DNA of 64,000 nucleotides from Peronospora farinosa. Its lineage: Eukaryota > Oomycota > Peronosporomycetes > Peronosporales > Peronosporaceae. This document shows positions 1,401 to 57,766 of the stretch, one piece after another. Positions within the stretch are counted from its first letter, which is position 1. Every line of letters begins with the position of its first letter. Made by a program: the position numbers and the translations under genes. The notes below the pieces were generated by a model. The model was not told the origin of the DNA and did not search any database. It saw only the letters and a program-made list of their open reading frames with translations. The stretch lies in contig CANTFK010000736.1 of the NCBI GenBank assembly GCA_947646735.1, forward strand, positions 1 through 64,000, written 5' to 3'.

Positions 1401-1418
1401 GCCTCGATAGCTCAGTTG
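1401..1418 (+). repeat. Left target-site duplication of the LINE (tRNA bases 1-18)
   Basis: GCCTCGATAGCTCAGTTG, the first 18 bases of a tRNA-Phe gene, followed directly by LINE sequence. The identical 18 bases recur at 8414-8431 as the start of the complete tRNA on the far side. This is a perfect direct repeat flanking 1419-8413. Confidence 0.93.
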
Positions 1419-1425
1419 AAAGGTT

Positions 1426-1447
1426 GTCTATATTTTATGGTATAGAC
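1426..1447 (-). other. 3'-terminal hairpin of the LINE
   Basis: GTCTATA and TATAGAC form a perfect 7-base stem around an 8-base loop, followed on the element strand by the tail AACCTTT and then the target duplication. A likely 3' recognition structure for the element's reverse transcriptase, by analogy with stringent-type LINEs. The SINEs in the array end in the same architecture. Confidence 0.75.
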
Positions 1448-1621
1448 AGGGGACTAATCAACCTACCTGGCTAATTTATGCTATAATACTCTATTGTACG
1501 GTTTTTTTTTTTTTTTTTGAAATTGAAAATTGAAAATTGACATATTTTCAAAAAAATTTGAAAAGAAAATTTTCAAAATATTCAGGAATCGGAAGTTTTC
1601 TCACGCCGAAGAATTCGTCAG

Positions 1622-4600
1622 CTAGTCGTGGGGGAGCAGCTCACGCTGGCGGACTTGCAGTGCCGTTGAATTCTGACTGAGAAAGTCGTGGAAGAGTTGA
1701 TTTCGTGACATCCGAGCAAGAAGAGCTTGCTGCCTTGCCCGTTGGTCAGGATCGTAACAACGACGAAGTCGGTGTCGGAAATGTGCGCTAGCAGTTGTCA
1801 AGATGACCTGCATGGCTGGAAGCGTAGGCGTGGGTTGCCTCCCATCGAAGAGGCATCTGTTGCGGTCGTTCCAGAGGAAGTGGAGCGTCACCGCGCGAAG
1901 CGTGTGCCAGACGTCGTAGACCACCTCCGCGCTGGTCATCCACTCGTCATGGACGTGTAGCTTTCTTGATAGCACAATGTCTAACCATGTCGCGCGTAGC
2001 CGGAAGAAAGGCGACATCAGTCGGTGAGCATGCTCCCAGAGCTGGACTGCGAGTGTGCAATCGAAGAACAAATGCTGCTCGGTCTCGATGGCGCCGCACC
2101 CAACACGAACGCAAAGACGAATGCTCGGGTTGGCCGCCTCCAGGAACCAGAAGCGCGAGCGGACTGGCAGAAGACGGAACGCTAGGCGAAATTGAAGATC
2201 TGCAAACACGGGGAGCAAGATCTTCTGCAGGTGCTTGCTGTACTTCACGTAAGTCCGGATCATCCCCACATCAAAACGCTGGGAGTGGATTGTCATCGGA
2301 TGCTGCTTTGTCGGTGGCTGTGGTGACCACACGATGCGAAGCAGCGCAGACTTCGGGATTGATGGCATGAAGCACACCTTATCGCCACTGCTGCAACCAA
2401 GATATGGAAGAGGGTGGCGTCGACTGCTCTCTGGCTGTAAAACCATATGCGTCGCTCCGAGTCTCGCAACGATCTGAGTTGCCTCCACGTATAGCACGCG
2501 CAGCCAATGTGCCTGTCGTCCAGGCAGCACTGAACCAAGTGTGAAGTCGATGTGGCGTTGCACAAAGTCTTGCCGCGACGGCCAAACACCCCCATCGCGC
2601 ATAAAGTCAGCAAGCGACCGCACTCGGAAGACTCTGGACACATGTAGCCGGAAGCTCCGTTGCGGTTCGACTACCATACCAATGCATCGACGATGCGCTG
2701 TGCCCGTGGTTGTTCGCGAAGATCTCTCATAGTGCAACATGGCGTCCGAGTGGAACCATATTGGCTGGTGAAGACCATACAATGCGCGCTCACAAGGAGG
2801 AAGGTCATGCCATGTGAATGTCCACCGGATCTTGTACCATGATGTCCACGTCGCTTTCCACCATGCAGAAGCCAGCCACCATCGGATTAGTTTCCCATGG
2901 CGCAACGGAGAGATGGAGAGGAAGTCCAAGGCACTTGACCGATCCGTGCAAGGAAGAAGTAGCTTCAGCAGTTCGGAACTCGCTGTCGTCCAGTTCCGAA
3001 TATGTGTCGTTGTCGCGGCGCTGATAAACTGAAGAAGGAATTGGAGACGCTGGCGCTTGAGATGGGCTGCCAGGCTTGGTACACCCAGCCCACCATCGCC
3101 ACGGCGCTGGTACAGGAAATCGGTTGGGATCAACTGAACGTGCGACTCATGACGATCGTGCTTTCGACAGAGCACAAACTTGTTCAGCATGGACTGCCAC
3201 CGCTTCACAATAGTCCGTGGAATGGAGACGTGCTGGGTGTAATGCCACAGACGAGAGAGTATCATGGTTTGAGCGACTAATAGGCGACCCCGAAGCGTCC
3301 GTGCCCGTCGATACCACAGTTTAAAGCCATCGTAGAAGCGTTGCTCGAGCGAATCCACGAGAACGTGATCAACCGATGACTGCCCGAACGGAATACCTAG
3401 GTATTTCACCGTCTCCACACGGCCCAATACGTAAACACCAGGGAGTAAAGGACAGTCGTGGTTCCTGTTCAGCGCTAGCAGCGTAGACTTGGATAGGTTG
3501 AGCTTGGCACCTGAACCGTCGCAGTACTCCGCCACAACGACAAGCTGGGCTTGCAGGTGCGCAATCGAGTTACTTAGAAGCGTCGAGTCGTCGGCAAAGA
3601 ACGTGCTCGTGGCGGTGTGGTCTGCGTTTATACACACGCCATATTCCTCGTGGGACCGCAGCATATTGCCAAGAGGTTCAATGGTCAAGATGAATAGAAG
3701 AGCAGACAACGGATCGCCCTGTTTTACTCCACGAGTCGGATACAGCGCGGGTTGAATGTTCTGGTTGATGACGAGATGAGCTTGAGGATTCGTGTAGAGA
3801 AGCCGGATCCATTGCGTAAACTGCTTATCGAAACCCATTTTCTCGAGCAGGCGGAACATATAGTCCCAGTTGACGCGATCAAAAGCCTTCTCGAAATCTA
3901 GAAACAGCGCATACGCTTCTTCGTCCTGGCTTGTCACAAGGTCTTGCAAGTCAGCTAGAAAGCGTATGTGGTGGTGGATGGACCGGCCTTTGACAAACCC
4001 TTTCTGGTCCGGATGGACCAAGTCGGGGATAACGTGTTGCAGTCGGTAGGTCAGTGCCTTCGACAGGACTTTCACGTCGACCTGCACGAGAGCAATAGGT
4101 CTATAGTTACCAGGTTCAGCCCGCGACCCTTTCTTGTGGAGAAGAACTACCGCCGACTTACGCTGCGAAGGTAGCAGTGCGCCGCAATGAAGCAACGCGC
4201 TGAAAACAATGGACAAGCATTCACCAAATATGTCAGGAGCCACCTGGTAGAAACCAGCCGTCAATCCGTCCATGCCAGGAGATGAAGTCGCTTTCATGTG
4301 CCGGATCGCACTCGCCAACTCAGCAGCTGAGACTGGTGCGTTAAGGATATTGTGGTCTACCTCCGAGACAGTGCGGGTAACTGAGTCGAGAAGCTTGCGT
4401 TGAATGACAGCACCAGGTGGAGAAGCGCGTCCTGCTGGACTGGCGGGGTCTCCCATCTCTGAACCCCAGTGTTCCAGGAAACGGAGAGAGATCTCGTGAG
4501 GATTCGATGAGACAGTACCAGTCGGTGTCACCACCTCCTCGATCGAGACCCGTCTCAAGCTCGTATCCAGCGGACGGAAGAAGTGCTTGGACGATTTCTC

Positions 4601-5713
4601 AGAATTTGCTGCTTGGAAGTCGAAGGCAGTGTCTTGGTTGTACTGGCTAGTCCGAGTGACTGTCTCGCGGTAATTACGCATTGCTTCGTCAAAGTGTTCG
4701 TGGGTCGAATCACTGGAAGCGACACGATAACAAGCAGCAGCGTGATCAAGTTGGATCCTAGCCTCATCGATAGCTTGAGTGTCTTGCTGCCGGAGCCTAT
4801 TCTGAACGGCTTGAAGCTGGGACTTGATGCTCGCTTTCCACTTCTCCCAGACCTTTCCCGGGTTAGACGCGGTGCGCAGTACAGCCCGGACAGATTCTGC
4901 TTCTCTCTCGATAGCTGACACCACCATCGGATATTCCAGTAAGTAGAGAGGAAACTTCCAATATCCACGACCATGCAGCTGAGTGCCGGACCGAAAAGTT
5001 ACACTGTGAGCAAGGTGATCGCCAGCATGCTGTGGCGTGAAATACACGGAGTTACGGTAGAAGCGATCGCAGAAAGACTTCGACAGCATGATGTAGTCCA
5101 GCCGGTTTTTCCGGGGAAGAGGCCCAGTGAACACCCGCTTATTATCGTAGTGGATCCGCCATGCATCAACAACACCTAGCCGTGCCAGCCACTCAAGACA
5201 GCTGGAACGGCCCGGATCGTAGCGCAAGTCAGGACTGGAAGAGTCGAGTCGTGGGTCTAGGGGAGTGTTCAGGTCGCCCAACACGAAGTGAGTAGCGTGG
5301 TCGTCGAACTCCTCGGTGACCAAGCTGGAGAAAAATTGTTGTTTTTCCTGTCTGTCCACAGGTGCATAGACATTGTGCACGTAAATGGGAGCCCCCTCGA
5401 CCATCACTTTCACGACGAGATAGCGGCCGGGGATGGACACACTTGGGACAGCGACAGCCGAATCGAAGCCTGGGAAGTCAGAGCGGAGTATTGTGAGAAC
5501 TCCATTGCGCCGCCCTCGCGTCGGCCGATGTAGCTGGGAGTTGGGGTCGTCCACAAAGATCTTGTGCTCGAAACACGAGTCGAGGTGAAACTTGAAAGTG
5601 GCCAGGTGCGTACTGTCGCCGAACTTGGTCTCTTGGACACACGATACTGAGTACTTAGAGATCAACTTCTCGATAAAGAGATGTCCGTTCTGTTTAATTC
5701 CATTAGTGTTCAC
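1622..5713 (-). CDS. LINE ORF2: AP-endonuclease / reverse transcriptase
   Basis: An intact 1363-residue ORF2 that would nick the target and copy element RNA there. The N-terminal endonuclease/exonuclease/phosphatase domain (about residues 1-240) shows its expected residues: E28 in QETK, D147 and N149 in GDLN, D206 in RLDYI, and D232-H233 in GDH. The reverse transcriptase (about 480-780) has LDFEKAFD near 605-612, RGVKQGDPLS near 661-670 and the catalytic FADD at 706-709. Near the C terminus C1201, C1206, H1214 and C1219 form a zinc-binding motif of the kind found after the RT in many APE-type LINEs. There is no internal stop. I see no RNase H domain. Target specificity probably lies in the endonuclease and C-terminal region, which is inference. 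Confidence 0.92.
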   Translation of the reverse strand: MNTNGIKQNGHLFIEKLISKYSVSCVQETKFGDSTHLATFKFHLDSCFEHKIFVDDPNSQLHRPTRGRRNGVLTILRSDFPGFDSAVAVPSVSIPGRYLVVKVMVEGAPIYVHNVYAPVDRQEKQQFFSSLVTEEFDDHATHFVLGDLNTPLDPRLDSSSPDLRYDPGRSSCLEWLARLGVVDAWRIHYDNKRVFTGPLPRKNRLDYIMLSKSFCDRFYRNSVYFTPQHAGDHLAHSVTFRSGTQLHGRGYWKFPLYLLEYPMVVSAIEREAESVRAVLRTASNPGKVWEKWKASIKSQLQAVQNRLRQQDTQAIDEARIQLDHAAACYRVASSDSTHEHFDEAMRNYRETVTRTSQYNQDTAFDFQAANSEKSSKHFFRPLDTSLRRVSIEEVVTPTGTVSSNPHEISLRFLEHWGSEMGDPASPAGRASPPGAVIQRKLLDSVTRTVSEVDHNILNAPVSAAELASAIRHMKATSSPGMDGLTAGFYQVAPDIFGECLSIVFSALLHCGALLPSQRKSAVVLLHKKGSRAEPGNYRPIALVQVDVKVLSKALTYRLQHVIPDLVHPDQKGFVKGRSIHHHIRFLADLQDLVTSQDEEAYALFLDFEKAFDRVNWDYMFRLLEKMGFDKQFTQWIRLLYTNPQAHLVINQNIQPALYPTRGVKQGDPLSALLFILTIEPLGNMLRSHEEYGVCINADHTATSTFFADDSTLLSNSIAHLQAQLVVVAEYCDGSGAKLNLSKSTLLALNRNHDCPLLPGVYVLGRVETVKYLGIPFGQSSVDHVLVDSLEQRFYDGFKLWYRRARTLRGRLLVAQTMILSRLWHYTQHVSIPRTIVKRWQSMLNKFVLCRKHDRHESHVQLIPTDFLYQRRGDGGLGVPSLAAHLKRQRLQFLLQFISAATTTHIRNWTTASSELLKLLLPCTDRSSALDFLSISPLRHGKLIRWWLASAWWKATWTSWYKIRWTFTWHDLPPCERALYGLHQPIWFHSDAMLHYERSSRTTTGTAHRRCIGMVVEPQRSFRLHVSRVFRVRSLADFMRDGGVWPSRQDFVQRHIDFTLGSVLPGRQAHWLRVLYVEATQIVARLGATHMVLQPESSRRHPLPYLGCSSGDKVCFMPSIPKSALLRIVWSPQPPTKQHPMTIHSQRFDVGMIRTYVKYSKHLQKILLPVFADLQFRLAFRLLPVRSRFWFLEAANPSIRLCVRVGCGAIETEQHLFFDCTLAVQLWEHAHRLMSPFFRLRATWLDIVLSRKLHVHDEWMTSAEVVYDVWHTLRAVTLHFLWNDRNRCLFDGRQPTPTLPAMQVILTTASAHFRHRLRRCYDPDQRARQQALLARMSRNQLFHDFLSQNSTALQVRQRELLPHD

Positions 5714-5759
5714 AGTGAGAGCACTAATATTGCTCCAAGATGTTGAGGCTGAGGAGACC

Positions 5760-8327
5760 TTAGCAGCGAGTGGCCAAACCCCCTGCTACCAGCACAACTC
5801 CTCCTTCAACGACTTGAAGCTGCAACACCGAAGAGTCTGCCGGGTAGAACCCGTCAAGCTCTCGAAGTTTTTCCAAATCGTCCAGAAGAGGCCCCTGCCA
5901 CTGGACCTCCCGCCAGTGCTGCATGCAGTGAGCACCAAGCTCGGATCGCAACAGGCATAGGAGGGTGTTGGGGTGAAGCAGCCGTGTGTTATGCGCTGGA
6001 ATCCACTCAACTGCTTGACCCGTAATATACTGGATCCAGTGATCGTTGGAGAAGATAATTGGTGCGATGGACATGAGCATGAGCTCGAACAAGCCCAAAG
6101 CCTTCGTCACACGGGAAAGTTCCGTGATCTCATCCGAAGATGTCCACCAGGCAGCGCACATCTTGAAGATATCACCGCGCTTGGAAGGTACTGCCGTCTT
6201 CATGTGTTTTTTCCACTTCGTACTGAAGGTGGTGTCATGCTTTGGACGAGTCGCACACAGCACGCGGTTAATGACATGCAACTGGGCGACTTCAGCGATC
6301 TCCTTTCCATTGCCGACCATTTTCAGCGACATAGCACTGTTGAAGGCGAGAGGCGAAGTGGTCGCCGACTTGGTGATGTGGTCAGGATTGGTGACGTGTT
6401 CGAGGAGCTGGCCTACTCCATCAACCTGCGTGTCTGCAGAGGTAAGACAGTCAGGGAGGATGTTAAGAAGCGCCGTGTTCTCGTCATTTAGCATTGACTC
6501 AGCCACTTCAAGGACCGAGGAGGCTTTTGCCGCTCTCCTGATCTTGGTGTGATGCTTTTCCACGAAGAACGAAGACTCGGTCGAAGTCTTCATTACGTCA
6601 GGGCGCTTTACTTCCACAGGTAGTACCTGATGACGGACTCCATACTGCTTATCAGTAGTCAAGTCTCGTAATTCAAACTTGGCCTCCATCGTCTGCAAGG
6701 CGAGGAAGTAGTTGGAGGTGGCAATGCCGTCAAGCGGCTGCGCGGATTGCTTGACAAGCATGTTGGAGAAGTCAACCGCGTTGCGATTGCGTTTTTTTCT
6801 GTTAGGCGGAGCGACGAAGCCATCGTTCGAGCCGTTGGTTAGCAAAAGCGTGGGCTTATTCTTGGCTCTAGGACTCCCAGGGGGAGTAATTTTGCCGTTA
6901 GATCCGCTGAAAGTCGAGATTGACAACGCACCCGAAGTGTTTCCTGGAATTATCGCGAGCTGATTGGCAGCCGATGGCTTGCCATGCTGAGCTCCATGGT
7001 GGAGCTGGCCATCCCGTTTCTTCGCATCCTCAACTGCCTTTTGAAGCGAGGTTTGCTTGGTTATCGCCGTCGGTCGTGCAGGTGCATTTACAGCTTGCGC
7101 GTACGTCCGTGTTAGAGGTTGGTGATGATGCTGAGGTGGCTCGGGCACAGGTGCAGACGGCGGAAAGACGTCGTCAGTCGTGCCCAAATCGATTCCGTGT
7201 TGCGAGCGAAAGCCAAACGGCAGACGCTCAGACTGGAAAGGAGCGTTCTTCCCGTGTGCCGGGTGCAGCTTATTCTCAAACAACACTTGGTCACAGACGC
7301 TGCCGTTCACCAACAAGGCACTGGGACATGAACTTGACAAGAAGTACACACGCCAAGTCGCAGACGTGATACCAGTCGCGAGGTTCACTTCTCGAAAGGT
7401 GTCATACACTGGCTTGCACCCTAGCAGGAACAAGCGCTGCATGATCAAATCCGTATCCGTGTCAGAGTCGACATTAGAGATGTCGATGAAGTACTTGCCG
7501 CCAAGGATGTCAAACTCCTTGAACAGGTAGACCCCACCGAGGATGTTCACCTTCGTCCGTTCGAGTTGCAGACAAGCTTCCTTCGATTTCACCTTCATTC
7601 GAAGATTGCCACCGGGAAGCTTTGAGATCTGGCCTATCTCGTAGCGGCTGTAGAGGTCTTCGAGAAAGTCGTTGCCATGGTTTCTGCCCGAAAGCGAAGA
7701 CATAATTTTCTGGAGCGGAGTCTTGGCAAGCGTCCGTCCAGTCTCGATCACCATGTCGTACTTGGCGCGAGGAAGCACATACGGCCGAGCTTGATCCATG
7801 CGAGACGCGATGAACGACCAATCGCCACCAGCGGCGTACTGGCGCTCGATCCATTCAATATCGCAAGCGAGTGGCTTTGGGGTCTCCACTCGACGTCGCG
7901 CAGCATCGTTGTCAGCACGGTCGCGACGAAGGTGGTCGTGTTGTGACAGCACGTCTGCCAGTGTCGGTCGTGGATCCGCTGGTGGCGACGTGGTGGCAAC
8001 GGGTGGTGGCACCGCAGACTCCATCGACTCGTCCACTTGCTGATGCAGGGCACGCTCAGCCAGCGCATCCACCATCGACACGTCCGCGGAGTAATCATGG
8101 CCGACCAGCTCAAGAGCAGACGAAACGGATGTTTCAGCCGTGGACGTAGACGTGGATGCAACTGGTAGAGAGGCCGAAAATTCTTCAGAGAGCGATCCCG
8201 ACCCATCCAAATTTTCAAATGAGGATGGGCACACAGTGGGACCAGGAGAGCTCTTGGGATGGGCACCAGATGCGACAGTTTCCATCTGGTCAGCGAGAGG
8301 CTGGGAGGCGATGGCAGGCTGTTCCAT
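5760..8327 (-). CDS. LINE ORF1 protein (putative nucleic-acid-binding)
   Basis: An 855-residue open frame just upstream of ORF2. The frame stays open to 8495, but the first 56 residues of that longer reading are encoded by antisense tRNA-Phe and the LINE leader, so I take the first methionine inside the element (MEQPAIASQPL, codon at 8325-8327). The N terminus is rich in Pro, Ser and acidic residues. A globular part follows, with a stretch around IGQISKLPGGNLRMKVKS that could be an RRM-like fold. I see no CCHC zinc knuckle. By position it should be the RNA-packaging ORF1 protein of the LINE particle. It is separated from ORF2 by 46 bases, so ORF2 would need reinitiation or an internal start. 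Confidence 0.85.
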   Translation of the reverse strand: MEQPAIASQPLADQMETVASGAHPKSSPGPTVCPSSFENLDGSGSLSEEFSASLPVASTSTSTAETSVSSALELVGHDYSADVSMVDALAERALHQQVDESMESAVPPPVATTSPPADPRPTLADVLSQHDHLRRDRADNDAARRRVETPKPLACDIEWIERQYAAGGDWSFIASRMDQARPYVLPRAKYDMVIETGRTLAKTPLQKIMSSLSGRNHGNDFLEDLYSRYEIGQISKLPGGNLRMKVKSKEACLQLERTKVNILGGVYLFKEFDILGGKYFIDISNVDSDTDTDLIMQRLFLLGCKPVYDTFREVNLATGITSATWRVYFLSSSCPSALLVNGSVCDQVLFENKLHPAHGKNAPFQSERLPFGFRSQHGIDLGTTDDVFPPSAPVPEPPQHHHQPLTRTYAQAVNAPARPTAITKQTSLQKAVEDAKKRDGQLHHGAQHGKPSAANQLAIIPGNTSGALSISTFSGSNGKITPPGSPRAKNKPTLLLTNGSNDGFVAPPNRKKRNRNAVDFSNMLVKQSAQPLDGIATSNYFLALQTMEAKFELRDLTTDKQYGVRHQVLPVEVKRPDVMKTSTESSFFVEKHHTKIRRAAKASSVLEVAESMLNDENTALLNILPDCLTSADTQVDGVGQLLEHVTNPDHITKSATTSPLAFNSAMSLKMVGNGKEIAEVAQLHVINRVLCATRPKHDTTFSTKWKKHMKTAVPSKRGDIFKMCAAWWTSSDEITELSRVTKALGLFELMLMSIAPIIFSNDHWIQYITGQAVEWIPAHNTRLLHPNTLLCLLRSELGAHCMQHWREVQWQGPLLDDLEKLRELDGFYPADSSVLQLQVVEGGVVLVAGGLATRC

Positions 8328-8396
8328 GGGGAAAGGCGGAGAGAAAGCAGAGATGGGAGGGGTTGGGTTCTTCTTGTGAGTCGACTTGTGTAGTAG

Positions 8397-8413
8397 CCGG
8401 CAAATTGAGAAGT
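8397..8413 (-). promoter_or_regulatory. Possible initiator at the LINE 5' end
   Basis: The minus strand of the element begins ACTTCTCAATTTGCCGG. CTCAATTTG resembles the core of the oomycete Inr (a pyrimidine-rich CA-TT element), placed exactly where a LINE needs its internal promoter. The match is short and could be chance. Confidence 0.3.
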
Positions 8414-8417
8414 GCCT

Positions 8418-8475
<58 letters not shown>

Positions 8476-8486
8476 GGGTCGCGGCA
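8414..8486 (+). tRNA. tRNA-Phe(GAA), array copy 3 (right flank of LINE)
   Basis: A complete gene whose first 18 bases are the right-hand LINE target duplication. Its 5' flank is LINE sequence rather than the array spacer; internal boxes A and B are intact. Confidence 0.9.
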
Positions 8487-9025
8487 CTTTTGCACGCGTT
8501 TCTGGCCGCCTCGTTGCTTTCTTTGCCTTGTTTACCACGTTTTCTCACGTTTTACCACATCTATCGTGCTTACATAGCAGCATATCACACCAAGATCGCG
8601 CCGGTGTGGACTTGTCACTAGCGGCGCGTACCTAGTGTGCATAACTCAATTTGTCGGACAGACACGGGGGCGTGAACTTTGGTCAGGCGTGTGTACGATC
8701 TTGACTGCTCGCATCGGAGTAGTCACGGAACGGTACGGCTGGTGCTGGCTGGTGTTGGGTGAAGCGTAGACTGCCACTGTTCGATTCGGCGCATTTGTAC
8801 AAGCGTCGGAACGGCACAATTGCTACATAAGTTGCGGCAGGCGGCTGGTACGTCGCGAGATGGTCGTAGAGCGGCACTTTGAAGGTCGATAGGGGTAGTC
8901 AGGACGCAAGGAGATGCTGGCGGCCAATGGATGCGTGCATGGAACGCTTGATAGGCCGTGTGTGCTGCGTGAAGAATTTGGGGAGGTAGGGTATGTTTGT
9001 GTTGTGGCGCCTCGATAGCTCAGTT

Positions 9026-9300
9026 TTAAGTTAGTTGTATATTACCTTTTACACAACCTATACCTTCTCGGCTATGGCTAAGATATTACACAGCTCGCTA
9101 AGGCTGAATTTTTTTCTATTCTTTTTCCTCTATTATTAGTATTATACCGTTACGGTTATTGGGGTCGGTTATTATTTAGCATGGAGCCGACCGCTCTCCA
9201 TGTGTGGTTCGATTACGAAGATGTCCGGTGTGGGGCTCGAACCCGCAATCCACACCGTGAGGACCAGAAGCTTAATCCACTACCCCACGCCACCGGGGTC
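9026..9300 (-). mobile_element. SINE copy 2, 275 bases, in a tRNA-Phe D loop
   Basis: Reference copy. On the minus strand it starts with a tRNA-like head: box A-like TGGCGTGGGGTAGTGG and box B-like GGGTTCGAGCCCC (9232-9244 on the plus strand). An A-rich stretch follows. It ends in an 8-base stem (9034-9041 with 9050-9057) around an 8-base loop and an 8-base tail. One stem pair is A-C in the plus-strand DNA but becomes G-U in the element RNA, which supports a structure acting in that RNA. It is flanked by the 17-base duplication GCCTCGATAGCTCAGTT at 9009-9025 and 9301-9317. It encodes no protein, so it would need a partner LINE, very likely the one at 1419-8413. Confidence 0.88.
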
Positions 9301-11159: not shown

Positions 11160-11698
11160 CTTTTGCACGCGTTTCTGGCCGCCTCGTTGCTTTCTTTGCC
11201 TTGTTTTCCACGTTTTCTCACGTTTTACCACATCTATCGTGCTTACATAGCAGCATATCACACCAAGATCGCGCCGGTGTGGACTTGTCACTAGCGGCGC
11301 GTACCTAGTGTGCATAACTCAATTTGTCGGACAGACACGGGGGCGTGAACTTTGGTCGGGCGTGTGTACGATCTTGACTGCTCGCATCGGAGTAGTCACG
11401 GAACGGTATGGCTGGTGCTGGCTGGTGTTGGGTGAAGCGTAGACTGCCACTGTTCGATTCGGCGCATTTGTACAAGCGTCGGAACGGCACAATTGCTACA
11501 TAAGTTGCGGCAGGCGGCTGGTACGTCGCGAGATGGTCGTAGAGCGGCACTTTGAAGGTCGATAGGGGTAGTCAGGACGCAAGGAGATGCTGGAGGCCAA
11601 TGGATGCGTGCATGGAACGCTTGATAGGCCGGTGTGTGTGCGTGAAGAATTTGGGGAGGTAGGGTATGTTTGTGTTGTGGCGCCTCGGTAGCTCAGTT

Positions 11699-11958
11699 TT
11701 AAGTTAGTTGTATATTACCTTTTACACAACCTATACCTTCTCGGCTATGGCTAAGATATTACACAGCTCGCTAAGGCTGAATTTTTTTCTATTCTTTTTC
11801 CTCTATTATTAGTATTATACCGTTACGGTTATTGGGGTCGGTTATTATTTAGCATGGAGCCGACCGCTCTCCATGTGTGGTTCGATTAGAAGATGTCGGT
11901 GTGGGGCTCGAACCCGCAATCCACACCGTGAGGAAGAAGAATACTACACGCACGGGGT
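11699..11958 (-). mobile_element. SINE copy 3, degenerate
   Basis: A 260-base copy. The tRNA-like head is damaged: small deletions near 11888-11897 and the 5' segment after GTGAGGA replaced by unrelated bases. The 3' hairpin is intact. The target duplications (11682-11698 and 11959-11975) both carry the G7 variant GCCTCGGTAGCTCAGTT. Confidence 0.85.
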
Positions 11959-11965
11959 GCCTCGG

Positions 11966-12020
<55 letters not shown>

Positions 12021-13223: not shown

Positions 13224-13761
13224 CTTTTGCACGCGTTTCTGGCCGCCTCGTTGCTTTCTTTGCCTTGTTTACCACGTTTTCTCACGTTTTACCACATCTA
13301 TCGTGCTTACATAGCAGTATATCACACCAAGATCGCGCCGGTGTGGACTTGTCACTAGCGGCGCGTACCTAGTGTGCATAACTCAATTTGTCGGACAGAC
13401 ACGGGGGCGTGAACTTTGGTCAGGCGTGTGTACGATCTTGACTGCTCGCATCGGAGTAGTCACGGAACGGTATGGCTGGTGCTGGCTGGTGTTGGATGAA
13501 GCGTAGACTGCCACTGTTCGATTCGGCGCATTTGTACAAGCGTCGGAACGGCACAATTGCTACATAAGTTGCGGCAGGCGGCTGGTACGTCGCGAGATGG
13601 TCGTAGAGCGGCACTTTGAAGGTCGATAGGGGTAGTCAGGACGCAAGGAAATGCTGGAGGCCAATGGATGCGTGCATGGAACGCGTGGTAGGCTGTGTGT
13701 GCTCGTGAAGAATTTGGGGAGGTAGGGTATGTTTGTGTTGTGGCGCCTCGATAGCTCAGTT

Positions 13762-14036
13762 TTAAGTTAGTTGTATATTACCTTTTACACAACCTATACC
13801 TTCTCGGCTATGGCTAAGATATTACACAGCTCGCTAAGGCTGAATTTTTTTCTATTCTTTTTCCTCTATTATTAGTATTATACCGTTACGGTTATTGGGG
13901 TCGGTTATTATTTAGCATGGAGCCGACCGCTCTCCATGTGTGGTTCGATTACGAAGATGTCCGGTGTGGGGCTCGAACCCGCAATCCACACCGTGAGGAC
14001 CAGAAGCTTAATCCACTACCCCACGCCACCGGGGTC
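13762..14036 (-). mobile_element. SINE copy 4, 275 bases
   Basis: Full copy with the 3' hairpin and tRNA-like head. Its duplications (13745-13761 and 14037-14053) differ by one base: left A7, right G7. This suggests later gene conversion of one side. Confidence 0.88.
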
Positions 14037-14043
14037 GCCTCGG

Positions 14044-14098
<55 letters not shown>

Positions 14099-21832: not shown

Positions 21833-22368
21833 CTTTTGCACGCGTTTCTGGCCGCCTCGTTGCTTTCTTTGCCTTTTTTCCACGTTTTTCCACGTTTTCC
21901 CACATCTATCGTGCTTACATAGCAGTATATCACACCAAGATCGCGCCGTGTGGACTTGTCACTAGCGGCGCGTACCTAGTGTGCATAAATCTATTTGTCG
22001 GACAGACACGGGGGCGTGAACTTTGGTCAGGCGTGTGTACGATCTTCACTGCTCGCATCGGAGTAGTCACGGAACGGTATGGCTGGTGCTGGCTGATGAT
22101 GGATGAAGCGTAGACTGCCACAGTTCGATTCGGCGCATTTGTACAAGCGTCGGAACGGCACAATTGTTACATAAGTTGCGGCAGGCGGCTGGTACGTCGC
22201 GAGATGGTCGTAGAGCGGCACTTTGAAGGTCGATAGGGGTAGTCAGGACGCAAGGAAATGCTGGAGGCCAATGGATGCGTGCATGGAACGCGTGGTAGGC
22301 TGTGTGTGCTCGTGAAGAATTTGGGGAGGTAGGGTATGTTTGTGTTGTGGCGCCTCGGTAGCTCAGTT

Positions 22369-22643
22369 TTAAGTTAGTTGTATATTACCTTTTACACAAC
22401 CTATACCTTCTCGGCTATGGCTAAGATATTACACAGCTCGCTAAGGCTGAATTTTTTTCTATTCTTTTTCCTCTATTATTAGTATTATACCGTTACGGTT
22501 ATTGGGGTCGGTTATTATTTAGCATGGAGCCGACCGCTCTCCATGTGTGGTTCGATTACGAAGATGTCCGGTGTGGGGCTCGAACCCGCAATCCACACCG
22601 TGAGGACCAGAAGCTTAATCCACTACCCCACGCCACCGGGGTC
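22369..22643 (-). mobile_element. SINE copy 5, 275 bases
   Basis: Full copy. Both 17-base duplications (22352-22368 and 22644-22660) carry the G7 variant. Confidence 0.88.
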
Positions 22644-22716: not shown

Positions 22717-23254
22717 CTTTTGCACGCGTTTCTGGCCGCCTCGTTGCTTTCTTTGCCTTGTTTTCCACGTTTTTCCACGTTTTCCCACATCTATCGTGCT
22801 TACATAGCAGTATATCACACCAAGATCGCGCCGGTGTGGACTTGTCACTAGCGGCGCGTACCTAGTGTGCATAAATCTATTTGTCGGACAGACACGGGGG
22901 CGTGAACTTTGGTCAGGCGTGTGTACGATCTTCACTGCTCGCATCGGAGTAGTCACGGAACGGTATGGCTGGTGCTGGCTGATGATGGATGAAGCGTAGA
23001 CTGCCACAGTTCGATTCGGCGCATTTGTACAAGCGTCGGAACGGCACAATTGTTACATAAGTTGCGGCAGGCGGCTGGTACGTCGCGAGATGGTCGTAGA
23101 GCGGCACTTTGAAGGTCGATAGGGGTAGTCAGGACGCAAGGAAATGCTGGAGGCCAATGGATGCGTGCATGGAACGCGTGGTAGGCTGTGTGTGCTCGTG
23201 AACAATTTGGGGAGGTAGGGTATGTTTGTGTTGTGGCGCCTCGGTAGCTCAGTT

Positions 23255-23529
23255 TTAAGTTAGTTGTATATTACCTTTTACACAACCTATACCTTCTCGG
23301 CTATGGCTAAGATATTACACAGCTCGCTAAGGCTGAATTTTTTTCTATTCTTTTTCCTCTATTATTAGTATTATACCGTTACGGTTATTGGGGTCGGTTA
23401 TTATTTAGCATGGAGCCGACCGCTCTCCATGTGTGGTTCGATTACGAAGATGTCCGGTGTGGGGCTCGAACCCGCAATCCACACCGTGAGGACCAGAAGC
23501 TTAATCCACTACCCCACGCCACCGGGGTC
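23255..23529 (-). mobile_element. SINE copy 6, 275 bases
   Basis: Full copy in the unit right after SINE copy 5. G7 duplications at 23238-23254 and 23530-23546. Adjacency to copy 5 suggests the SINE-bearing unit was duplicated by the array rather than inserted twice. Confidence 0.88.
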
Positions 23530-48478: not shown

Positions 48479-50608
48479 ATGAATTCGGACAGTCGGACAC
48501 CCGTTCTTCGACACGTCTCGTCTTCGAATCACACGCCTTTAAGTTTGGACGGATCGGAGACCACAGCGGTGCTAGGTGCCCCCATGTCCCGCAATGACCT
48601 CGGCTGCAGTCGTGCACTCGACCAAAACGGATTGTTGTCACCCGGCACTTTGTACGGGAACTTGGACACTTTGAAAGGACCGGCGCCGCACACCTTTAGT
48701 AACAACAGCTTGCCAGTGAAGCCCAAGGTTGCGTTATTTGATCAGAACTCGGAGCTGTCGACGGAGGGATTCCGCCAACGTGCGGCACTACAGACGTGCT
48801 CCATCAGTTGGCAGCATATTTCGTACTTCATTCAGCCCAAGGAGACGCTACTAGGACGTTTTCGTAACAACAGCAAGCGCGGATCAGGGCTGTCCGGACT
48901 TGAGGCACAGCTCGAGAGACAACAGCCTCGCAAGATTCTCAGCAATGTATGGGGTCGATCGGGACCGGGAGAGTTAACTGCCATTTTAGGACCTTCGGGT
49001 GCAGGTAAAACCACGTTGCTTGGTATGCTTGCCGACCGAGTGCCGTCAGGGGACTCGGGTGTGCACTTGGAAGGTCTCGTGGAAGTGAATGGCCAACCTC
49101 GTGACCTCCGCACGTTCCACTCTATCATGAACTACGTATCCGAAGAGATGGCTTTCCTTGGAGCATTCACAGTGTTGGAGACCCTACAGATCGGTGCTGG
49201 GCTGAGTTTGCCCGGACACATGCCCCCCGTGCAGCGAGAGGCTCGTGTTCAAGATGTGATCGACGCGATGGGATTGCGATCATGCGCTAACGCCCGAGTG
49301 GGCGACATATTCCACAAGGGTATTTCGTCCGGTCAACGCAAACGTCTTGGCATTGCTCTGGAATTGCTTTCGGACCCTGCTTTGCTGCTTCTTGATGAAC
49401 CGACTTCTGGTTTAGATTCGTCTTCCGCTCGTGGTGTCATGCAGTACATTGAGCGTTTGTGTCAAGAAGGTGGTAAGAACGTTGTGTGTACGATCCACCA
49501 GCCTTCGTCTTCCATCTACGGCATGCTTACCAATCTGATCATTCTCAGTGGTGGCGAGCTGGTGTACAGTGGACCTACTAGTGCTGCCATTCCTCACTTT
49601 TTTTCCATGGGATACGTGTGTCCGATGTACACGAACCCGGCCGAATACTTTGTTCATTTAGTGAACACAAACTTTCACGACGGATTGAAGCTGGAACCGT
49701 TCACCCGTGCACTAAAGGAAAGTGCTGAACCACAGCGTCTTCGTGCTGATGTTGTTCAAGATCGATCTCGACGTGAGCACCTCACTAACCCCGAACTGCT
49801 CAAAGCCATGCGACCGTGGCCGATGGACCAGTTTGTTGTGTTGCTCAAACGTAATATGACCAACAACTGGAGGCATCCGGGTGTGTTCTGGCTGCGTGTG
49901 CTCATGTACGTGTTGCTGTCCTTGATGGTGGGCACCATGTATTTGAGTTCCAACGCCGAAATCAAGGACACGTCCATCGTGCCGCTGCTCTTCTACGTGC
50001 AAGCTTTCCTGGTATTCATGTCCGTCGCCGCTCTTCCGGCTTTATTGGAGCACCGAGCAGTCATGGAACGAGAAATGCGAGCATATGCATTGTCACTCAC
50101 GGGTTACACGATGTCAAACCTGCTGGCTTCGTTACCGGGCATTTTCCTCATTTCTGTACTGGCATCCGTCATCGTGGTGTTCCTGGCTCATGTGTACACG
50201 TTTTCTACGTTCCTTTTGAACTTGACATTGTCACTCATCGCCGCTGAGTCTCTGATGCACTTGATTGGTGCTGCTGTGCCTCACTACATCATGGGTATTG
50301 CGTTGGGAGCTGGTCTCTTCGGTATGTTCATGCTTTGCGAAGGCTTCATGGTGCCGTTTTCGGATATGCCCGTGTACTGGAAATGGGGTTATTACATCGC
50401 CTTTCACACGTACTCGTTCGAGTCTTTCATGTATGAGCATTTTTCTAGGGTGAACACGGCTGAGGCGTGGAAAATTCTCCAAAACTACGGCATGGAGAAA
50501 GTGAACATCTGGCAGGACATGATCATTTTGGCATGTTACTCGGCTGTATTGCAAATTCTCGTCATTGGTGTGCTAACCCTCCGATTTAGTCGGCACCGCC
50601 GCCGCTAG
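48479..50608 (+). CDS. ABCG-type half-transporter (White/WBC subfamily)
   Basis: A 709-residue single-exon protein with the ABCG order: nucleotide-binding domain first, membrane domain second. As a half-transporter it should dimerise in a membrane and export lipids, sterols or hydrophobic compounds; the substrate cannot be read from sequence. Walker A is GPSGAGKTT from residue 171, the signature ISSGQRKRLG from 282, Walker B LLLLDEPTSGLD from 302, and the switch histidine is in TIHQPSSSIYG near 342. Six predicted membrane segments fall between about 465 and 705, ending with basic SRHRRR. The first 100 residues are Ser/Thr/Pro-rich and probably disordered. All ATP-binding motifs are intact. 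It is convergent with the reductase gene, whose stop lies 298 bases away. Confidence 0.93.
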   Translation: MNSDSRTPVLRHVSSSNHTPLSLDGSETTAVLGAPMSRNDLGCSRALDQNGLLSPGTLYGNLDTLKGPAPHTFSNNSLPVKPKVALFDQNSELSTEGFRQRAALQTCSISWQHISYFIQPKETLLGRFRNNSKRGSGLSGLEAQLERQQPRKILSNVWGRSGPGELTAILGPSGAGKTTLLGMLADRVPSGDSGVHLEGLVEVNGQPRDLRTFHSIMNYVSEEMAFLGAFTVLETLQIGAGLSLPGHMPPVQREARVQDVIDAMGLRSCANARVGDIFHKGISSGQRKRLGIALELLSDPALLLLDEPTSGLDSSSARGVMQYIERLCQEGGKNVVCTIHQPSSSIYGMLTNLIILSGGELVYSGPTSAAIPHFFSMGYVCPMYTNPAEYFVHLVNTNFHDGLKLEPFTRALKESAEPQRLRADVVQDRSRREHLTNPELLKAMRPWPMDQFVVLLKRNMTNNWRHPGVFWLRVLMYVLLSLMVGTMYLSSNAEIKDTSIVPLLFYVQAFLVFMSVAALPALLEHRAVMEREMRAYALSLTGYTMSNLLASLPGIFLISVLASVIVVFLAHVYTFSTFLLNLTLSLIAAESLMHLIGAAVPHYIMGIALGAGLFGMFMLCEGFMVPFSDMPVYWKWGYYIAFHTYSFESFMYEHFSRVNTAEAWKILQNYGMEKVNIWQDMIILACYSAVLQILVIGVLTLRFSRHRRR

Positions 50609-50906: not shown

Positions 50907-53297
50907 TTAAGCACCGCAAACCAGACATTCGTCCTCGTCCTCACCTGCCCGATTGACGTTCTCAACCACTGAGGCAGGGGTCGACTCTGCACCAGCCTTA
51001 GTGTCCTCCTTAGCGCGCTGCAAGTCGAGGCCCTGCTTGTCCACGGTGAACTGGATGGCGTCAGCTTTTGGGCGCCCGCGCATGTAATACATACCCGTCT
51101 TAAGCCCCTTTTTCCAAGCGTAAAAGTGCATGGAGGTGAGTTTACTGATCGTCGGGTCGGCGATGTGAATGTTAAGCGACTGACTCTGGCAAATATAAGC
51201 ACCACGGTCAGCCGACAGATCTAACACCGATTTCTGCTTGATTTCCCACACTGTTTTGTACTTCTCTTTGACATGGTCCGGAATGGTCTTCACCTTTTGC
51301 ACAGAACCATGGTCGTTCAGTATCTGGTTACGGACCTCGGGCGTCCAGATATCCAGATCGATCAGCTCTTTCATCAGGTACTTGTTCACGATCGTGAACT
51401 CACCAGCAAGCACACGTCGGTTGTACATGTTCGACGTGTACGGCTCGATGGACTCGTTGTTACCAAGGATCTGAGCAGTCGAAGCAGTAGGCATAGGAGC
51501 CACTAGCAAAGAGTTGCGGATGCCGTGCTTAATCACGTTCTCCTTCAAGGCGGTCCAGTCCCAAAGACCAGAGGACGGGGTGACACCCCACATGTCAAAC
51601 TGGAAGATACCCTTGCTGGCCGGGGAGCCCTGAAATGTCTCGTACGGGCCCAGTTCTTTGGCAATCTCCATGGATGTCTCCATCGAAGCATAATAGATGG
51701 TCTCAAAAATATTCTTGTTCAGTTCACGAGCCTGCTCGCTTTCGAACGCATAGTTCATGAGAATGAAAGCATCGGCCAGACCCTGAACACCAATGCCCAC
51801 AGGGCGGTGGCGCATGTTGGACTTTCGAGCCTCTGCAACCGGGTAGTAGTTAACGTCAATAACCTTGTTAAGGTTACGGGTGACCACCTTCGTCACATCA
51901 TACAGCTTCTTGTAGTCGAAGACACCGTCCTCCACAAACTTAGGTAAAGCCACAGACGCCAAGTTGCACACGGCCACCTCATCCGGCGACGTATACTCCA
52001 TTACCTCACAGCACAAGTTACTGGATCGGATCGTGCCAAGATTCTGCTGGTTGGACTTACGGTTGGCTGCGTCCTTAAAGAGCATGAATGGCACGCCCGT
52101 CTCAATCTGCGCATCTAAAATGCTGAACCATAGCTGCTGCGCATTAATTGTCTTGCGAGCGCGTCCCTCCTTTTCGTACTTTTCATAAAGCGTCTCGAAC
52201 TCGTCTCCCCAGCACTCGTAGAGAGCAGGAGCTTCGTTCGGACAGAATAAACTCCACTTGCCATTAGCTTCCACCCGTTTCATAAACAGATCAGGAATCC
52301 ATAGAGCGTAGAATAAGTCACGCGCTCGGTGCAATTCATTACCGTGGTTTTTACGCAGGTCCAGAAACTCAAACACGTCGGCATGCCACGGCTCCAAGTA
52401 TATAGCAAAGGATCCTTTGCGTTTACCTCCACCTTGGTCCACGTATCGGGCCGTGTCGTTAAACACCCGTAACATGGGAATGATCCCGTTAGAGGAACCA
52501 TTAGTGCCACGAATATAACTGTTAGTGGCTCGTATGTTGTGCATACTAATGCCAATCCCACCAGCCCATTTGGAAATGCACGCACATTGCTTCAATGTGT
52601 CATAAATACCTTCAATCGAATCATCCTGCATAGCTAGTAAAAAACACGAGGACAGTTGGGGGCGAGGAGTTCCAGCATTAAACAACGTTGGCGTCGCATG
52701 AGTAAAAAACTTCTGAGACATCAACTCGTACGTCTCCAAAGCCGCTTGAATATTGTTCTTGTGGATACCTAGAGCAACGCGCATAATTAATTGTTGCGGT
52801 CGCTCCACGACTTTTCCATTAACACGAAAGAGATATCCTTTCTCAAGTGTTTTGAATCCGAAATAGTCATACTCAAAGTCCCGGTCGTGAATGATTGCAG
52901 AGTTTAGCTCATCTTTGTGCTGCATCACGATCTCGTATACATCATCAGCTATGAGCGGAGCCGCTGCTCCTGTTTTCTCATGCACATTCTTGTGGAACAC
53001 GTCAATGTTGTCACTAAAGACCTTGTTTGTATTCTTGTGTAAATTTGACACGGCAATACGTGCCGCTAGCTTGGAAAAGTCTGGATGTTGGGTACTTTGG
53101 CAAGCGGCTGTCTCAGCAGCTAGCTCGTCCAGTTCCGAAGTGGTCACACCCGGGTACACACCCGCCACGACCTTTTGAGAGATCTTTATGGCATCAATGT
53201 AGTCTGGATTGAGACCATAGCAAAGCTTAGTGATGCGTGCTGTGATCTTGTCAAACTTGACGTCTTCACGACGACCATCGCGCTTGATAACGTACAT
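50907..53297 (-). CDS. RNR1: Ribonucleoside-diphosphate reductase large subunit (class Ia)
   Basis: Makes deoxyribonucleotides from ribonucleoside diphosphates together with a small radical-carrying subunit. The frame opens at 53402, but I start at [12 protein letters not shown] (53297). With that start the catalytic residues fall exactly on mammalian R1 numbering: C218 in SSCFLLAM, N427-C429-E431 in NLCCEV, and Y737-Y738 in MYYMRGRP. The product is 796 residues. Residues 1 to about 90 are the ATP cone. The barrel includes [12 protein letters not shown] and the NTP-binding surroundings. The C-terminal CLVCGA is the mobile thiol pair that re-reduces the active site. No intron is seen. Two E2F-like sites lie 130-160 bases upstream, consistent with S-phase expression. 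Confidence 0.96.
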
Positions 53298-53427
53298 GGT
53301 TTGAGTTGCTAAGCTATTGCTCGTGCTGGTGGATTGATGACTGACGGGTGGATGGGGTGGGAACAGGGTGAGGATTGGACGAAAAAAAGATTTGGAACCC
53401 ATGTGATTGGACTCAGTGCATCTCCCA

Positions 53428-55568: not shown

Positions 55569-57766
55569 CTTTCTCCACCATCCCGTAATTAATCTCGTTA
55601 GGCTTCAGCGTGCGACTAGAGAAAGTGACAGGCCAATAGATTCCATCGTGTTCTTGAAGTAACGCCGCTGGTATGGCCCACTTACTGGCATACACCACAA
55701 TCACAGGCGATCTTTCTGAATCAAAATGTTTAAGGATCGGTGTCGCAGCTATTTTAGCTTTTGATAGAGTGAATGCGATCGTTGCCTTTTCCCAGCGATT
55801 TATGCCCTCGACACCATGATCGTCCCCAGTATTCGATTCTGGATCGATAATGTAGCCATCTCTCGATCCACTTTTCAAATCCTGATCGATTTTATACTTG
55901 TCACGAGACTGGCGATCACAATTTGTTCCAGCATCAGTAGTGAACATCTGAACATCCCCAGCCCGGCTGATCTCATGAAAATCTGCCTCCCGCAGCTCAT
56001 AAAGTACAGATGCATAAATCGCAAAATCCTCAATTAATCGGCTGTAGTAATTCAGACTCCCCAAAAATGACTGCATTGATCGCAACGTCCGAGAAAATAG
56101 GACGTTTACCAGAGATTCTAACATCTTTTGGATGAGCTTCTAAACCTGCAAGCGAAACCTGATGACCTAGGTAATCCACTTTACGACGTCCCCAAAAACT
56201 CTTAGCCACACTGATTAATAAATTCCACGTATTGCACGCTTCCAACAATCGTTCCACCTTCTCATAAAGGGACGTCCACGATGTAGCAGGTATCAGTATA
56301 TCGTCAATATATGATCGACGACCTAACACCGATGGTTTCGAATCAGTATCTGTTTCACCTTCAGTAAACACGTCGATCGGCTTTGACAATTCAGCTGGAA
56401 TTGAATCAGAACTTGTACCAATTTTCAAATACCCATATAGAGCATTGTCAATCAATTGCTGGTAGATTTGAGGAGCATTCTTCAATCCGAATGGCATTCG
56501 TAACCACTCAAACAAACCTGACGGTGTAATAAATGCAGAAATCATCCTCGCTCTCTCTGTCATTTCTACCAATCAGAATCCACTTGCCATATTCAAGGAA
56601 CAATACCACATAGCTTTATCCATATCTTGCAATACATCACTGATCAATGGCATCGGATACACCATCAATCGTGTCAATTGATTTACTCGTCGATAATCGA
56701 TACATAGTCGAATATCTTCACCGTTTTTCTTGATGATTACCACAATTGGCGAAGCCCACGGCGAAGTAGATGGCTGAATGATCTTGGCATACAATAATCC
56801 CTTGATCAGATCTGCTAATTTCTTTCGAAATTTGGGTGCTACAGGTCGCACTTTTTGTGCGATCGGGTTGGCCCCTATCACAAATTGCTCCACGTGCTGC
56901 GGGAGGTAGGGCATTACCTTTCCCTATGAGTAAGAGGCGATTCTTCCAAATTAATTGTCGTAGCTTTTCTTGATCTTCTGTCAATGGTATTTCAGGGTCG
57001 CCAACTTGAATATCGTCGATCGATACTTCCACCGTACACATCACAATTTCTGGCAACACCGCCATATGCTGATCGACATCTTTGGTCAACAGATCGCCAC
57101 TCTCGTGAGAATATACTGCCTCTTCAGATGATGGTTCTTTTGTTGGGACATCCTCGGTTGCGATCGCTGTGGACATATGTTTCACACGATCGGATTGTCT
57201 CTGATCGTTATCGTCGACGATCTTCGTAAAAACTATTCAATTGCTTCATCCGATCAATTTAGTATCTGATCGACTTCTCCCACTTCTCTGGTCGCATCGA
57301 TCCCACCTGTGGACTGTTCTTGATCTTAGTCCGTTATGTCTTCATCACTAATATCGATTCTTTCACCTGATCGATCTTGTACACCATCCACCTTGTCGAT
57401 TTCTTTCAGCATATTGATCGCAAATTGTGATCGTCTTGACTGATGATCTTCACTGTCAAGATAACCTTGATCTTCTGTACTATCCTGATTACTCCCACGT
57501 TGATCGTGTCCTTATCCGATTGCGATTCAATTTTCTCCACTTTTGCGATCTTCTCGTTCTCTCCCTTCCTTGGACGCATCAAAATTTTAGTTAGTAGTGA
57601 ATACGATGGGTGATCAACTAGTGGTCCTGTTGGCTCATCAGCAAACTCTTCCTCCCTATCTGTAGTTGCTTCATAGGCCATAGTCTGCCACTCATTATAT
57701 AGACGCGACCCCAACACAAGACATATCCAGGTGATCGAGGTATCATATCCGCAGCCATCCACCAAC
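55568..57766 (-). pseudogene. RT and RNase H region of element E, broken
   Basis: A linker frame at 57766-57406 continues the protease frame after a frameshift. Another starts at 57185 and holds DPEIPLTEDQEKLRQLIWKN. RT follows in pieces: ASPIVVIIKKNGEDIRLCID and YRRVNQLT at 56914-56573, a stop, then LFEWLRMPFGLKNAPQIYQQ and the catalytic YIDD at 56572-56030. RNase H is in another frame at 56124-55570 (VYASKWAIPAALLQ, NEINYGMVEK) and is cut after EK. At least three frameshifts and one stop. Confidence 0.78.

Follow-up and report, generated by a model that had tools for sequence, protein, structure and literature searches.

A LINE and a SINE that insert at the A box of tRNA genes of many isotypes in Peronospora farinosa

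When a long interspersed nuclear element (LINE) is found lodged inside a tRNA gene, is its target that particular tRNA or something that tRNA genes have in common? The question is raised by a stretch of 64,000 nucleotides from the oomycete Peronospora farinosa (contig CANTFK010000736.1, positions 1 to 64,000; "the window" in what follows), which starts within a tandem array of tRNA-Phe genes (209-28969, plus strand; 35 complete genes, most of them 590-600 bp apart). The identical 18 bases GCCTCGATAGCTCAGTTG, which are nucleotides 1-18 of the tRNA-Phe gene at 8414-8487, are present at 1401-1418 and at 8414-8431, and between these perfect repeats lies a LINE of 6,995 bp on the minus strand (1419-8413). 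The flanks joined without the LINE (1282-1400 + 8414-8530) are 100% identical over 236 bp to an uninterrupted array unit of the window, so the insertion is precise, as the first-pass annotation of this DNA had proposed together with the repeat itself. That annotation described a LINE inside a tRNA gene; the insertion is real, but the gene (8414-8487, plus strand) has been regenerated complete beside the 5' end of the LINE, with its nucleotides 1-18 forming the second copy of the duplication, while the upstream copy (1401-1418, plus strand) is left as the stub of the split gene. The duplicate starts at nucleotide 1 of the tRNA, so that the insertion has not destroyed the downstream tRNA-Phe gene but restored it. 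On the evidence below, we regard it as highly probable that an active or very recently active site-specific LINE, represented by two families (A and B) and accompanied by a parasitic short interspersed nuclear element (SINE), has as its target the internal A-box promoter and not one tRNA.

Analysis of the whole genome (46.85 Mb in 274 contigs; all junctions come from this one genome, and the counts of LINE and SINE ends are lower bounds) reveals the two related LINE families, A, to which the window's copy belongs, and B, with 77% identity in the second open reading frame (ORF2). We found at least 19 LINE 3' ends, 9 of A type and 10 of B type, all of which adjoin the sequence TRG(C/T)TCAGTT(G/A) in one orientation, and for 18 of the 19 the preceding sequence is the 5' start of a recognisable tRNA: Thr in seven cases (one of them mutated), Cys in three, Ile and Ala in two each, and Phe, Trp, Lys and Tyr in one each. 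The junction pattern TRGCTCAGTTGAAAGGTTGTC, with up to 2 mismatches, has 20 matches in the 46.85 Mb and 0 in the reversed control, which excludes chance; 19 of these matches are the LINE 3' ends and the remaining one (on C160) is without an element. The A box (TRGCTCA) is the target, in eight isotypes or more, so the earlier description of a tRNA-Phe array as the target was correct in placing it inside a tRNA but too narrow, and within this genome the relatives of the LINE are not found mostly at unrelated sites. The B copies in Ala (C235a), Cys (C240a) and Thr (C248a) genes are identical over 4,074 nt of ORF2, and over the same length those in Lys (C229), Cys (C240b) and Thr (C248b) genes have 1-2 differences from this trio and from each other, the copy in Tyr has 4-5 differences, and the second Ala copy (C235b), with one stop codon, has 7-11 differences from all other B copies. 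The four A copies (Phe, Ile, Cys and a Thr/Trp recombinant) have 2-28 differences in 4,089 nt and no stop in ORF2. Near-identical copies at different isotypes therefore argue for a specificity for something common to tRNAs and for recent movement; one element moves among isotypes and is not Phe-specific.

The 5' junctions are equally uniform in placement. All 15 LINE 5' ends seen are at a tRNA start, 12 of them exactly 7 nt before TRGC, i.e. at nucleotide 1 of the tRNA by position (the start given by ARAGORN shifts by one base in some isotypes), and three at 8 nt before TRGC, one of these with an extra base and two beside unusual stubs of nested insertions. In eight of the 14 LINE insertions with both ends, the two sides carry an identical tRNA start of 14-18 bp, and these clean duplications represent eight loci, in genes for Phe, Tyr, Lys, Ala, Cys and Thr. 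Insertion thus duplicates the tRNA start, and next to its 5' end the LINE has a complete gene; usually the whole tRNA gene is regenerated in this way and open to another insertion, with a stub left on the other side. Repeated use of a single gene was found in a tRNA-Cys (B, then a SINE; C240 84195-91718), a tRNA-Ile (A, then an A/B chimera; C56 7027-21046) and a tRNA-Thr (B, a truncated B and a SINE; C248 623335-632625), although the order of events is our reconstruction. These flanks also bear on the proposal that the spread over isotypes is secondary, i.e. that a single insertion was followed by recombination or gene conversion among tRNA arrays. Some recombination does happen, as indicated by the copy at C248 614250-621244, which has different isotypes on its two sides, and by the foreign stub of the C56 chimera, but the matching 14-18 bp flanks of 8 of the 14 insertions, at eight loci and in six isotypes, and the isotype-specific spacer outside the stub require separate insertions, and we consider this proposal very improbable. 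Still less credence is given to stub and junctions being artefacts of assembling repeat arrays: several copies do lie near contig ends in arrays (C198, C220, C240, C248), but nine contigs, C48 among them, and eight isotypes have the same junction, the SINE occupies the same base, and a protein 100% identical to ORF2 is known from another source (P0001, source lgn, a contig of 6,948 bases), which may share the organism's reads.

The inserted element is L1-like; it is a full-length LINE of the apurinic/apyrimidinic endonuclease (APE) type with open ORF1 and ORF2, as had been read from the letters; its ends are both common to other copies and agree with the empty-site comparison. ORF2 (1622-5713, minus strand), identified by Pfam, by its match to human L1 ORF2p and by alignment motifs, comprises an APE-like endonuclease, a reverse transcriptase (RT) and a C-terminal C/H motif, and has 1363 aa counted from a GTG start in an open frame of 1387 aa. 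Pfam assigns the families Exo_endo_phos and RVT_1, and detects in ORF2 neither an RNase H family nor an endonuclease family other than APE. The N-terminal endonuclease domain (4985-5731, minus strand), modelled with a pLDDT of 91, has the catalytic residues, and the RT core (RVT_1, residues 526-775; 3389-4138, minus strand) has the FADD motif. The best relative of solved structure is human L1 ORF2p (E 2.6e-62; R2 has E 1.3e-25), and the C-terminal motif C-x4-C-x7-H-x4-C aligns with that of L1 as a weak second domain; the RT tree was made without R1, Tx1, TRE and other reference sequences. ORF1 (about 5760-8327, minus strand, ATG at 8327), defined by its open frame and a structure model, has no match in Pfam, and its modelled middle part gives weak matches resembling the RNA recognition motif. 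The poly(A) tail expected of the L1 group is missing at the 3' junction, where we found a fixed hairpin and CCTTTCAAC. The hairpin of the LINE RNA (1426-1447, minus strand; GUCUAUA stem) is predicted just before the 3' end CCUUUCAAC when the 71-nt tail is folded (z -2.62; 3 of 200 shuffles fold as well). The first 49 nt (8365-8413, minus strand) are 90% identical between A and B, and the 390 nt of A that follow give no blastn alignment with B. Related proteins occur in other oomycetes. The 5' part of B contains a 78-bp stretch twice (nt 304-381 and 391-468 of C240:84489-91718; 79% identity); the same comparison reported no such repeat for A.

Where exactly is the target cut, and what is recognised there? 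The join had been placed after tRNA base 17 or 18; the repeat is indeed 18 bp long in the window, but it looks so long because tRNA-Phe itself reads CTCAGTTG, and other isotypes show that the bases after CTCA come with the element. Host genes read CAGTGG (Cys, Thr, Trp), CAGTCGG (Ile) or CTCAAATGG (7 of 7 Ala genes), whereas 17 of the 19 LINE stubs read CTCAGTTG (the other two TTCAGTTG and CTCAGTTA) and all 16 SINE stubs in tRNAs read CTCAGT. Since the Ala genes differ from the stubs, everything after CTCA in the Ala insertions is supplied by the element, and these cases put the priming nick at or before nucleotide 14 (TRGCTCA^). By the same comparison (GTT(G) in tRNA-Ala insertions versus AATG in 7/7 Ala genes), only 1401-1414 of the window's stub (plus strand) corresponds to nucleotides 1-14 of the tRNA, and 1415-1418 (GTTG, plus strand) is probably the end of the element's complementary DNA. 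The simplest model common to all cases would have a nick after TRGCTCA (nucleotide 14) and a cut of the other strand at nucleotide 1.

The pattern GCTCAN{2,3}GGNAGAGC has 229 matches in the genome and 58 in the reversed control, so not all of the 229 are tRNA genes. A boxes of the Ser/Leu type (GCCGAG) have 56 matches (control 1), of which 38 are evenly spaced on C4, a contig with none of the LINE or SINE ends found in the genome. In the C235 array the Ala genes are used and the alternating His genes (GTAGTATAG) are not, and in the C248 array the Thr and Trp genes are used and the Ser genes are not. This pattern, from few arrays with non-independent copies, favours direct reading of TRGCTCA over general factors of RNA polymerase III (Pol III). 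Alternatively, TFIIIC/TFIIIB of the Pol III machinery may bring the element to its sites, the model put forward for Dictyostelium TRE5-A, with the endonuclease setting only the exact cut by a local preference. In favour of this model, every recognised target is a tRNA gene, and TRE5-A targeting requires the B box, the ORF1 protein of that element binding TFIIIB subunits (PMC5911963). It would less readily account for the lack of scatter, the same base being used in every isotype as against the 40-54 bp window of TRE5, or for the unused Ser and His genes without TRGCTCA in the same arrays, a small sample. We judge it rather unlikely as the explanation of the pattern, but Pol III targeting and direct sequence reading are not mutually exclusive.

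We thus have a site-specific LINE/SINE pair of tRNA A boxes, the pattern of which is shown by the copies and the enzymology of which we infer. In standard target-primed reverse transcription the first cut is at the 3' end of the element; the LINE 3' end lies on the stub, and hence the L1-type endonuclease, presumably reading the DNA directly, would nick the tRNA-like strand after TRGCTCA. The freed 3' end would then prime reverse transcription of an RNA ending in ...AAC shortly after the terminal hairpin (CCUUUCAAC in the LINE, CUUAAAAC in the SINE), perhaps helped by read-through RNA carrying antisense tRNA sequence. The other strand would be cut at the 5' boundary of the tRNA, 14 nt away, and repair would duplicate nucleotides 1-14, with a short stub as the result at the LINE 3' side and, at the 5' side, a complete tRNA gene available for another insertion. 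A bolder version, possible in our view but doubtful, is that for the LINE and SINE all TRGCTCA-type tRNA genes are one renewable landing pad: the internal promoter is read and the tRNA rebuilt, and the antisense stub, transcribed into the following RNA, would pair with the tRNA to be hit next; in this way the element would carry its own address and could shuttle tRNA pieces between isotypes.

The non-coding SINE of 275 bp is inserted at the same base and in the same orientation as the LINE, with 16 of its 17 3' ends in tRNA genes (Phe 6, Lys 5, Cys 2, and Ala, Thr and Ile 1 each). It terminates in ...CTTAAAAC where the LINE has ...CCTTTCAAC, with the terminal AAC common to both, and its RNA end is read as ...CUUAAAAC. 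Over its last 40 nt it is similar to the B tail (a score reached by 4 of 2,000 shuffles) and to the A tail (12 of 2,000), and both the SINE and A have a predicted hairpin close to the 3' end. From these similarities, mobilisation of the SINE by this LINE group is probable, with B perhaps the one responsible. A B-box-like GGTTCGAGCCC, which may belong to a tRNA-derived head, was seen in the SINE by eye, but Rfam detects no tRNA in it at E up to 1. The window contains six copies, all on the minus strand: one cut by the contig start (1-208), with its 5' end adjoining tRNA-Phe nucleotide 1 at 209, and five at the same tRNA-Phe site, namely one of 275 bp at 9025-9299; one with an altered 5' part at 11698-11958 (the 5' boundary was set by eye at the tRNA start at 11959, the extrapolated end at 11968 given by the script being an artefact of the altered part); one at 13761-14035, whose flanks differ at tRNA nucleotide 7 (A/G); and two, each with the same 17 bp on both sides (22368-22642 and 23254-23528). 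The A/G difference is a variant present in the array and may reflect gene conversion or mutation after insertion.

Several observations weigh against the reading of an A-box target. The counts are not independent, since a single event may have been copied within an array. The 19th LINE 3' end, an old copy on C48, has the A-box sequence with no tRNA found nearby, and one old SINE copy (C257, 77% identical) is outside any tRNA; ORF2 remnants on C233, C273 and C13, for which no 3' end was located and which were left out of the counts, are uninformative on the target. A clean duplication is missing in six of the 14 two-ended insertions: a later insertion lies on the 5' side of three (C240 B, C248 B, C56 A), the flanks of C240 A differ at tRNA nucleotide 7, the C56 A/B chimera has a foreign stub, and at C248 614250-621244 (L039, L067) a tRNA-Trp is at the 5' side and a tRNA-Thr stub at the 3' side. 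The last case is probably a product of recombination between LINE copies, which would rearrange tRNA arrays. In the B tail another fold is predicted as best instead of the hairpin. Finally, the use of GCTCA sites is uneven: C74 has 53 A-box pattern matches about 777 bp apart (C74:11-40424) with no A, B or SINE end found, and C49 (8 matches), C184 (4) and C38 (2) have no found end either.

How does this LINE compare with known systems? Its target is less unusual than was first suggested, as LINEs specific for tRNA-Pro (NeSL-1_TV), tRNA-Arg (LIN15_SM) and tRNA-Glu (LIN25_SM) have been reported (PMC4640811), so that a tRNA gene with a LINE inside it is in itself no novelty. These NeSL-related families (NeSL is a clade encoding a restriction-like endonuclease, the exact place of NeSL-1_TV being left open; PMC4640811) are reported for one isotype each, unlike the present APE-bearing, L1-like element with at least eight. 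It resembles the dictyostelid LINEs TRE5/TRE3 and NLTR-A/NLTR-B, classed as L1 in a published table (PMC5911963), in using tRNA genes as safe sites. However, the insertions of TRE and NLTR elements lie some way outside the tRNA (PMC5911963, PMC5006619), namely 40-54 bp upstream for TRE5, 40-150 bp downstream for TRE3 and 2-6 bp upstream for NLTR-A (PMC5911963), whereas the present LINE joins inside the tRNA at one base (18 of 19 3' ends; the C48 end has the A-box sequence only). The Dada DNA transposons (Dada-tIA, -tIB and -tY of Perkinsus, -tL and -tA of fish) also insert inside tRNA genes, three families with putative duplications of TAGCTC, part of the A box, and the Perkinsus families are each said to keep to their own tRNA genes (PMC3706591). 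The choice of nearly the same A-box bases is a striking convergence, given by a DDE transposase with a 6-7 bp duplication in Dada and by RT and APE in the LINE, with a duplication of about 14 nt (common flank 14-18 bp in the eight clean cases). Dewa, Mutsu and Keno of zebrafish, with the tRNA-Leu spacer, 5S rRNA and U2 genes as targets (PMC3706591), are likewise sequence-specific LINEs of multicopy RNA genes, and Keno has an apurinic-like endonuclease (PMC4640811); they differ from the present LINE in their targets. Utopia, a U2 snRNA LINE with a restriction-like endonuclease, is also kept in oomycetes (PMC4640811) and is site-specific for a small RNA gene family, but differs in target and endonuclease from the present APE element with 18 of 19 3' ends in tRNA starts. 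An archaeal-type RNase H has been described in oomycete L1 elements (PMC5348765); the present LINE is without RNase H in Pfam.

Within the parts of the open-licence literature that we searched, we found no precedent for an APE LINE and a SINE using the A box of many isotypes, and what appears new is an APE/L1-like LINE at an internal tRNA base, the use of many isotypes through their common A box, a target gene that is regenerated and hit repeatedly, and a SINE that inserts at this base too. The tRNA-associated LINEs seen there are distant from the gene or reported for one tRNA, whereas here a promoter motif common to many isotypes opens up some two hundred sites, nearly harmless because the tRNA is regenerated. 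With its very tight site, the element's L1-type endonuclease is a natural system in which to study how such enzymes gain specificity. As the same base serves both families, whose ORF2 sequences are 77% identical, the site specificity is probably older than their split and should occur in other oomycetes.

Two junctions suggest that tRNA pieces may be carried along. At C220:229475-229518 (L074), the 44 nt beside the 5' end of a B copy match exactly two places on C226, taken by eye as tRNA-Met from the CAT anticodon, and then continue as tRNA-Tyr, joined at TGAA. This candidate element-driven tRNA chimera likely arose from a transcript that began upstream of a copy lodged in tRNA-Met; alternatively, it may be an older chimeric tRNA gene. 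At C56:14048-21046 (L040, L066, L075), the LINE is of family A from its 5' end through ORF2 up to about residue 1168 and of family B from there to its 3' end, and the adjacent stub in the Ile gene (14028-14048) carries a tRNA-Ala-like stretch. Read-through RNA with template switching would explain both stub and chimera, as would gene conversion.

In the window as a whole the Rfam scan detected only tRNAs. Beyond the array we found genes for an ABC-2 type transporter (48479-50608) and the large subunit of ribonucleotide reductase (50907-53402), and an open reading frame with gag-type aspartyl protease domains (57618-60107), perhaps the remnant of a long terminal repeat retrotransposon.
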